64,000 nucleotides of DNA from Leptotrichia sp. oral taxon 212 (GTDB lineage: Bacteria > Fusobacteriota > Fusobacteriia > Fusobacteriales > Leptotrichiaceae), in NCBI RefSeq assembly GCF_001274535.1, contig NZ_CP012410.1, forward strand, positions 1,027,126 through 1,091,125, read 5' to 3'. The position numbers and the translations under genes are program-made. Shown one piece after another: positions 27,330 to 28,218 of the stretch (positions within the stretch are counted from its first letter, which is position 1; each line of letters begins with the position of its first letter). Under the pieces are notes generated by a model. That model had not been told where the DNA came from and ran no database searches. It saw only the letters and a list, made by a program, of their open reading frames with translations.

Positions 27330-27956
27330 ATGACAAATTTGAAATCGGAAGAAAAAGTAGCAAAAGCACTGTTTGATATGAAGGCAGTGAAAATAAACGT
27401 AAAAGAACCTTTTACATTTGCTTCAGGAATAAAAAGTCCTATTTACTGTGATAATAGATACATACTTGGATTTTCAGCAGAAAGGGATATAATAATTGAA
27501 AGTTTTGTAGAAAAAATAGATAAGGATACAGATGTTATAGCAGGAGTTGCAACAGCAGGAATTCCATGGGCGGCATTTATTGCGGACAGGATGAAAAAAC
27601 CTTTATGTTATATAAGAAATAAGCCGAAGGATCATGGAGCAGGAAAACAGATTGAAGGTGCAGAAGTAAAAGGTAAAAAAGTAACAGTGATAGAAGATCT
27701 TATAACTACTGGAAAAAGTAGTCTTGTTGCTGTTGATGTTCTTCAGAAGGAAGAAGTGAAGGAATTGGAAGTAAAATCAATATTTTCTTATGGATTTAAA
27801 AGTGCAGAAGAAAATTATGAAAAATACAACTGTAAATTTTCTTCACTGTCAAACTTTGATATTCTAATAAAAATGCTGAAGGAAAGTAAATATCTTACAG
27901 AAAAAGAAGCTGAAATTGCTCTTGAATGGAGTAAAAATCCTGAAGTATGGGGATAG
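27330..27956 (+). CDS. pyrE: Orotate phosphoribosyltransferase
   Basis: PyrE transfers phosphoribose from PRPP to orotate. The 208-residue product contains FTFASGIKSPIYCDNR, IAGVATAGIPWAAFIA and the PRPP-binding signature VTVIEDLITTGKSS. AGAAAGGAAAATATAAATT serves as RBS. It is the last pyr gene here. pyrD and car genes are outside the window, so the operon B-I-F-C-E lacks the dehydrogenase step. Confidence 0.95.
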   Translation: MTNLKSEEKVAKALFDMKAVKINVKEPFTFASGIKSPIYCDNRYILGFSAERDIIIESFVEKIDKDTDVIAGVATAGIPWAAFIADRMKKPLCYIRNKPKDHGAGKQIEGAEVKGKKVTVIEDLITTGKSSLVAVDVLQKEEVKELEVKSIFSYGFKSAEENYEKYNCKFSSLSNFDILIKMLKESKYLTEKEAEIALEWSKNPEVWG

Positions 27957-28000: not shown

Positions 28001-28029
28001 TTGAAAAAAAATTAAATATGTGCTATAAT
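28001..28029 (+). promoter_or_regulatory. Promoter of the small antisense RNA
   Basis: TTGAAA (28001-28006), a 17-nt spacer and a perfect extended -10 TGCTATAAT (TATAAT 28024-28029). It is one of the best promoters in the window, yet no + strand ORF follows. The transcript would start near 28036 and meet a strong terminator after about 55 nt. Confidence 0.8.
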
Positions 28030-28035
28030 AAAATT

Positions 28036-28090
28036 GTAATTATAGCAACACGTTATACAAAAAGAGAGTGCTGAGGGCACTCTCTTTTTT
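28036..28090 (+). ncRNA. Candidate type I antitoxin RNA
   Basis: A transcript of roughly 55 nt is predicted from the promoter at 28001-28029 to the terminator at 28059-28090, with no ORF or RBS inside. It overlaps the 3' end of the opposite-strand peptide mRNA through the shared terminator stem. Its 5' half carries UAGCAACACGUUAUAC (28043-28058). This can pair with the peptide mRNA across its start codon (28185-28170) with 13 Watson-Crick pairs, 2 G-U pairs and 1 mismatch. Two separated interaction sites are the hallmark of par-type RNAII. Existence of the RNA is predicted, not shown. Confidence 0.6.
28059..28090. terminator. Bidirectional terminator shared by the RNA pair
   Basis: A perfect 13-bp stem (28059-28071 with 28077-28089) encloses a 5-nt loop, TGAGG on the + strand and CCTCA on the minus strand. 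A and T runs on both sides make it an intrinsic terminator in either direction. The minus-strand loop contains CUCA, which fits the YUNR U-turn motif that speeds antisense pairing in other systems. Confidence 0.85.
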
Positions 28091-28097
28091 GATTCAT

Positions 28098-28178
28098 TTA
28101 CATAAGATTTTCTATAAGAAATTTCAGAAATTCCAGAAAAGACAGTAAAAGAATTTTTATTGTTTCTTTTAGCAGCAC
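28098..28178 (-). CDS. 26-residue hydrophobic peptide, candidate type I toxin
   Basis: GTG at 28178-28176 opens a 26-codon frame ending at TAA 28100-28098. The RBS AAAGGAGG (28194-28187) is the strongest kind in this window and is spaced 8 nt from the start. The peptide begins MLLKETIKILLLSF and continues with Leu/Phe/Ile broken by Glu16, Lys19 and Glu23, ending NLM. It is therefore a short amphipathic or membrane-inserting helix. A convergent small RNA, a shared terminator and start-codon complementarity suggest a type I toxin. It does not resemble Fst, Ldr, TxpA or Hok by eye. Too short for ordinary gene finders. Confidence 0.6.
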   Translation of the reverse strand: MLLKETIKILLLSFLEFLKFLIENLM

Positions 28179-28209
28179 GCTACACACCTCCTTTACATGA
28201 GGATAAAAT

Positions 28210-28218
28210 ATTATAACA
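28210..28218 (-). promoter_or_regulatory. Extended -10 promoter of the small peptide gene
   Basis: On the minus strand TGTTATAAT (TATAAT at 28215-28210) is a perfect extended -10. The region 17 nt upstream is only TTTTAA. The mRNA would start near 28203, leaving a short leader of about 25 nt before the start codon, and end at the shared terminator, giving about 145 nt. Confidence 0.6.

Follow-up and report, generated by a model that had tools for sequence, protein, structure and literature searches.

Until a cyanobacterial case was reported in 2025, the known type I toxin-antitoxin systems came from Proteobacteria, Firmicutes and Tenericutes alone (PMC12390103), and membrane-associated type I toxins have been described in Proteobacteria and Firmicutes only (PMC8309996). 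The closest described counterpart of the locus considered here is par of the Enterococcus plasmid pAD1 (Fst/RNA II), which together with the other Fst loci of Firmicutes combines convergent promoters, a long toxin mRNA and a short antisense RNA (PMC7472228). The par locus carries direct repeats, DRa and DRb, and a 5' stem that masks the Shine-Dalgarno (SD) sequence of the toxin, and the U-turn used for terminator-loop kissing is absent from some par homologues (PMC7472228). Our literature search for type I systems together with Leptotrichia or Fusobacteriota, the coverage of which excluded most subscription journals, found no paper.

We analysed a window of 64,000 nucleotides from Leptotrichia sp. 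oral taxon 212. Between two plus-strand genes that we take from their translated products to be pyrE (27330-27956) and asnS (28400 onward), it contains what is very probably a chromosomal type I toxin-antitoxin module with a new peptide family, regulated in the manner of par of pAD1. Its elements are listed below; the 5' fold and the extents of the two RNAs are predicted, and the others are read directly from the letters.

28178-28098, minus strand: putative toxin open reading frame (ORF), 26 codons plus stop, GTG start, peptide VLLKETIKILLLSFLEFLKFLIENLM, also written M(V)LLKETIKILLLSFLEFLKFLIENLM
28194-28187, minus strand: toxin SD AAAGGAGG, kept across the family
28187..28203, minus strand: predicted 5' stem-loop over the SD, in which the mRNA 5' end UCCUC pairs with GAGG of the SD
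28218-28210, minus strand: extended -10 of the toxin promoter, TGTTATAAT; the -10 is kept in paralogues and relatives
28238-28233, minus strand: weak -35 of the toxin promoter, TTTTAA
28058..28204, minus strand: predicted toxin mRNA of ~147 nt, placed from the -10 and the terminator
28001..28029, plus strand: antisense RNA promoter, TTGAAA (28001-28006), 17 nt, TATAAT (28024-28029), with extended -10 (TGC)
28036..28090, plus strand: predicted antisense (antitoxin) RNA of ~55 nt, placed from promoter and terminator
28040-28059, plus strand: direct repeat copy in the 5' part of the antisense RNA, TTATAGCAACACGTTATACA, the seed that is complementary to the start region of the toxin
28167-28186, minus strand: second copy of the direct repeat, across the toxin start codon, TGTGTAGCGTGCTGCTAAAA, -8 to +11 of the ORF, the antisense target
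28059..28090, both strands: shared bidirectional intrinsic terminator

As in type I systems generally, a small hydrophobic peptide is encoded with its own promoter and SD. The promoters converge, with the toxin mRNA on the minus strand and the antisense RNA on the plus strand, and together with the shared bidirectional terminator this reproduces the par architecture. The terminator hairpin (GAGAGTG-CTGAGGG-CACTCTC, stem 28064-28084) lies between the toxin ORF and the opposing plus-strand promoter, is flanked on both sides by A- and T-runs, and probably doubles as the terminator of the upstream pyrE operon. The initial annotation had correctly placed the ORF, the SD, the extended -10, the plus-strand promoter and the hairpin, but overlooked two further par-like elements, the SD-pairing 5' stem and a direct repeat of ~20 nt through which the 5' part of the antisense RNA matches the start-codon region of the toxin. 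Compared on the toxin strand (TGTGTAGCGTGCTGCTAAAA vs TGTATAACGTGTTGCTATAA), the repeat copies are identical at 16 of 20 positions, two others still pair as G-U and two are mismatched; none of 1000 shuffles was equally good. Both RNAs cross the repeats and are predicted to pair over the toxin start, as in par. An anti-SD stem is likewise predicted in most or all of 14 representative loci of the family, corresponding to the SD sequestration of par, and in intact loci the antisense RNA is predicted to pair at the SD or start codon, the site of translational control in a type I system.

The likeness to par thus extends to the terminator, the repeats at the translation start and the stem over the SD, and both groups have plasmid as well as chromosomal copies. 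This feature-by-feature agreement in regulatory layout (par per PMC7472228) is what would favor a divergent Fst or Ldr member that has lost the usual motif, but the peptides themselves make that reading unlikely. The Leptotrichiaceae toxins have 26-27 residues and are unrelated in sequence to Fst; no member of the family alignment (A7) has the PxxxG motif or, beyond the helix, a charged or polar tail at the C-terminus, which typically ends in ...(E/Q)EFWK or ...EKFL, with ENLM also occurring. The toxin mRNA is shorter, ~145 nt compared with ~230 nt in par, and the phylum is Fusobacteriota. A Pfam search of 13 members returned no Fst or Ldr match, the comparison of LdrD with the family scored at shuffle level, and Pfam Fst_toxin (PF13955) was found in 0 of 98 Fusobacteriota genomes, against a weak control in which one of 14 genomes gave a match, and that below cut-off. 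The statement in the initial annotation that the peptide is unlike Fst therefore holds. No family in Pfam or NCBIfam was matched at all, the sole listings having E-values of 7.2 and 0.02, the latter to the small membrane protein Prli42, and the peptide accordingly has no relation to any proven toxin that these searches could detect.

Other type I systems share part of this design. Escherichia coli DinQ/AgrB and TisB/IstR-1 have toxins of similar length (27-29 aa) in which polar residues are spaced along a hydrophobic helix, but their antitoxin is a separate divergent gene and not a convergent one. Against a subgroup profile (A4) DinQ scored 7.8 bits, a value reached by 1 of 300 shuffles; with the full-family profile (A7) this likeness disappeared (2.1 bits, reached by 34 of 300 shuffles) and TisB was at shuffle level, so that homology with DinQ or TisB is unsupported. 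Ldr/Rdl of E. coli also joins a small hydrophobic toxin to a cis-encoded RNA antitoxin, but under Hok/Sok-like control (PMC7472228). The Microcystis pair msoT1/msoA1 is similarly a type I candidate beyond the classical phyla with a cis-encoded antisense RNA; msoA1, however, targets the toxin message in its 3' part and has no direct-repeat address at the start codon (PMC12390103). Toxicity of MsoT1 was assayed in E. coli (PMC12390103), whereas the Leptotrichiaceae peptide is known here from sequence alone.

A DNA search of the organism's own genome, a single contig of 2.44 Mb, revealed two further copies, own2 (L002, peptide MIPEEEILKIFLLLLLELIQILIEKYM) and own3 (L003, peptide MLTQKILMKIFLLLLLELLKILIDKYL), which share the peptide, promoters and terminator stem with the window locus. 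Their repeats, ATATGAYTCCA.. in own2 and GTCCTTTGCYTACRCA in own3, are unrelated to that of the window locus. L004, L005 and other short matches were AT-rich, had none of the architecture and were rejected. The TTGA-type -35, the 17-nt spacing and TATAAT are kept in own2, own3 and most relatives, and the terminator stem was found again in all three own loci and in six Leptotrichia genomes, with none in a reversed-pattern control; the loops vary between paralogues. Conservation of homologous peptides, antisense promoter and terminator in relatives, which the initial annotation had named as a check on its proposal, was thereby confirmed. The own3 locus (L003 420-1304) and a locus in G012 (L175 415-1368) have a common neighbor gene with 59.6% identity, and this chromosomal position may be old despite the divergence of the peptides.

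Iterated profiles combined with a promoter/anti-SD/SD pattern, applied to 98 Fusobacteriota genomes, yielded 22 intact loci. All of them come from four genera of Leptotrichiaceae, namely that of the window itself together with g3, g6 (Leptotrichia) and g8. Outside the Leptotrichiaceae the same genomes contained only weak peptide matches (E > 0.009). The earlier proposal of a new family in Fusobacteriota is consequently upheld as regards the family but not as regards extent across the phylum, significant matches being confined to Leptotrichiaceae. The predicted toxin mRNA measures 140-157 nt in all intact members and the antisense RNA 54-79 nt in the family. Every intact member tested has the repeat at the SD or start codon, and no more than 4 of 1000 shuffles equaled it; the intact toxin of G017b fell outside the automatic test owing to a terminator stem mismatch, and its repeat is visible by eye. 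Two of the Leptotrichia chromosomal loci are syntenic across species. Peptide-pattern scans of genome and viral contig collections yielded no confirmed relative, but these scans are insensitive and tblastn confirmation is weak at 26 aa.

Specificity of the predicted pairing was examined with a duplex matrix of antisense RNA, without its terminator, against toxin 5' regions. Within the genome, the three cognate duplexes have energies of -22.0 (window locus), -22.3 and -24.1 kcal/mol, while the six non-cognate duplexes reach only -4.3 to -12.5 kcal/mol. Across 14 distinct loci the best-binding partner of every antisense RNA is the 5' region of its own toxin (14/14 in both rows and columns), with mean energies of -22.9 kcal/mol for cognate and -8.9 kcal/mol for non-cognate pairs, and none of 100,000 permutations equaled the cognate sum. 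The nearest non-cognate pair, the antisense RNA of G011b with the related target of G008b, reached -21.6 kcal/mol. At many differences between repeat copies, G-U pairing is preserved. Common descent would not by itself explain why the two repeats vary in concert around a peptide core that remains similar. A natural specificity experiment is provided by G002 (L215 1150-1700; G002:C1:44367-44707), where two complete convergent modules lie side by side with differing repeats, GTCATACATCATGA and GTCATATCTTATGA, each exactly repeated in its own antisense RNA.

A third form of the peptide, typically MDKLWIKILIIIALQIAIILIEEFWK, is plasmid-encoded in L. hofstadii, L. trevisanii, L. wadei (two strains) and L. 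shahii, and a plasmid from Leptotrichia sp. oral taxon 221 carries a more divergent relative. These copies emerged from blastn of the locus, which matched six Leptotrichia plasmid records, whereas tblastn against plasmids gave no match; negative protein searches at 26 aa accordingly mean little. No gene is listed under the match in any of the six copies, in a PLSDB gene table that is itself incomplete. Four of these copies, one each from L. hofstadii and L. trevisanii and two from L. wadei, are flanked by a RelE/ParE-type gene or pair and by a PemK/MazF or recombinase gene, and three of the four have a replication gene nearby. The neighbors on the oral taxon 221 plasmid are a RelB/DinJ antitoxin gene on one side and a replication gene on the other. 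The L. hofstadii copy (L192; NZ_AP019824.1, 16899-17249) is an unannotated type I candidate that sits in a cluster with type II genes (RelB/ParE and PemK/MazF) near a replication gene.

Small hydrophobic proteins are not necessarily toxic, and toxicity is only inferred here; the peptide might thus be a harmless small membrane protein, such as a modulator of stress or transport, that is incidentally under cis-antisense control. Purifying selection on the peptide is compatible with such a role. Pooled over 20 core codons, pN/pS amounts to 0.41 in the frame of the ORF vs 0.68 and 1.80 in the other frames, a descriptive figure given that the pairs are not independent, and on this measure of codon change the putative toxin ORFs are under purifying selection. 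A harmless function nevertheless appears quite improbable in view of the behavior of these loci, which resembles that of selfish elements: several paralogues with mutually exclusive predicted pairing, tandem duplicates, and plasmid copies that adjoin other toxin-antitoxin genes. Moreover, the toxin side decays while the antisense side is kept. Five loci retain antisense promoter, repeat and terminator but have a damaged toxin side, with loss of toxin promoter and SD (L011, G006), internal deletion of the toxin (L181, G006), toxin frameshifts (L176 and L212, G016) or replacement of the toxin 5' end (L214, G015). No intact toxin lacking its antisense was seen among the loci read. Such polarity, which comes from reading sequences and carries no formal test statistic, would be expected if the peptide were harmful. 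Several of the damaged loci are Leptotrichia chromosomal copies, and one is on an L. wadei plasmid.

AT-rich intergenic DNA commonly holds short ORFs, TATAAT boxes and hairpins, and the locus could in principle be a chance assembly with a spurious ORF beside the terminator of the pyrE operon. We scanned the window for sites that combine a bidirectional hairpin with a short hydrophobic ORF behind an SD and a repeat at the start region, and recovered one site only, the toxin locus, with a score of 14.4. Across 150 Markov-simulated 64-kb windows (9.6 Mb) a single site reached 12 and none exceeded 12.0, although the scoring scheme was devised after the locus was seen, so that this result serves only as a guide. 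The independent paralogues argue more strongly against chance than the simulated windows do, and the homologous peptides and self-matching repeats at other loci contradict this explanation, to which we attach hardly any weight. Several partial matches were set aside, namely L103 and L107, where a GAGAGTG-type terminator is the only match; L105/L091 and L092, which have the terminator stem but no toxin ORF; and the L145 phage matches, a 30-nt AT-rich stretch in Vibrio phages. A leader peptide or attenuator of a downstream gene, suggested by a short ORF followed by a terminator and by a sub-threshold Rfam match to Phe_leader (22.6 bits vs a gathering threshold of 55, with no meaningful Rfam match otherwise), is extremely improbable given that the ORF lies on the strand opposite to pyrE and asnS, has no regulatory codon run and has homologues adjoining unrelated genes.

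A second candidate layout, a tandem one, was found in the related genera g2, g7, g8 and g11, where 23-aa peptides such as MYRFIIKIMIFIIIFIVFAQISM are preceded on the same strand by a unit comprising a promoter, 14-21 nt of complementarity to the putative toxin start, and a terminator. The clear cases have shuffle p <= 0.013, and specificity among copies is not as sharp, with 6 of 8 giving the best value in their row as counted by the script. Both layouts occur in G020. Tandem candidates are L222/L108, L220/L188, L221/L187, L235, L236, L223, L225, L226 and L233; the 23-aa hydrophobic peptides include MLYRIIKILFFILIFLLLAQLAF and MSFRYKFIIFLILLYLLFPVIAY, and multiple copies are present in G029 and G030. 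In L234 at 1494 (G020:C1:1958801), a 23-aa hydrophobic ORF, MLQFVIKIVILIIIFLLLNVKVF, follows AGAGGGGGTGTAG, with no clear antisense partner seen. From the sequences compared, we give an even chance to the view that Leptotrichiaceae host a type I radiation in two layouts, the convergent one with direct repeats and the tandem one on a single strand, in which a start address of ~14-20 nt evolves quickly and in concert on the two RNAs, so that multiple copies in a cell avoid cross-silencing, and in which the par layout was either reached independently of Fst or joined to an unrelated toxin.

The par-like reading of the initial annotation passes every sequence test, and gains support from the direct repeats, the SD-masking stem, the covariation across 14 loci, the plasmid copies and the toxin decay with antitoxin kept. 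Two points weigh against it at the window locus, where the copy is GTG-started and the repeat has its two mismatches. The missing kinship with any proven toxin in the family searches and the lack of matches in the insensitive contig scans also count against it. Our model of the module is borrowed from par (PMC7472228), and every step past the sequence is inferred for the Leptotrichiaceae loci. The minus-strand promoter would produce the ~147-nt mRNA for a 26-aa peptide that presumably inserts in the membrane as a helix, and folding of the mRNA 5' end over the SD would slow toxin translation until the antisense RNA arrives. The opposing promoter would yield the ~55-nt antisense RNA, which has complementary terminator hairpins in common with the toxin mRNA. 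In the cell, the complementary terminators and the repeats would pair, and the antisense 5' end would cover the start codon and block initiation. On plasmid loss antisense synthesis would stop and the toxin be released, stabilizing the plasmid by post-segregational killing, which requires the antisense RNA to be the less stable partner. Those on chromosomes are probably remnants, either domesticated or selfish copies.

From these comparisons the par-like regulation appears to be known, while the toxin family and the phylum look new. The candidate family would add Fusobacteriota to the phyla with type I systems, with a toxin unlike known ones, and would tie one regulatory layout to two unrelated toxins. 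Its matched and mismatched antisense-target pairs form a natural series for specificity studies, and the results suggest architecture-based discovery where homology search fails. For Leptotrichia itself, the analysis identifies unannotated candidate stability modules on its plasmids.
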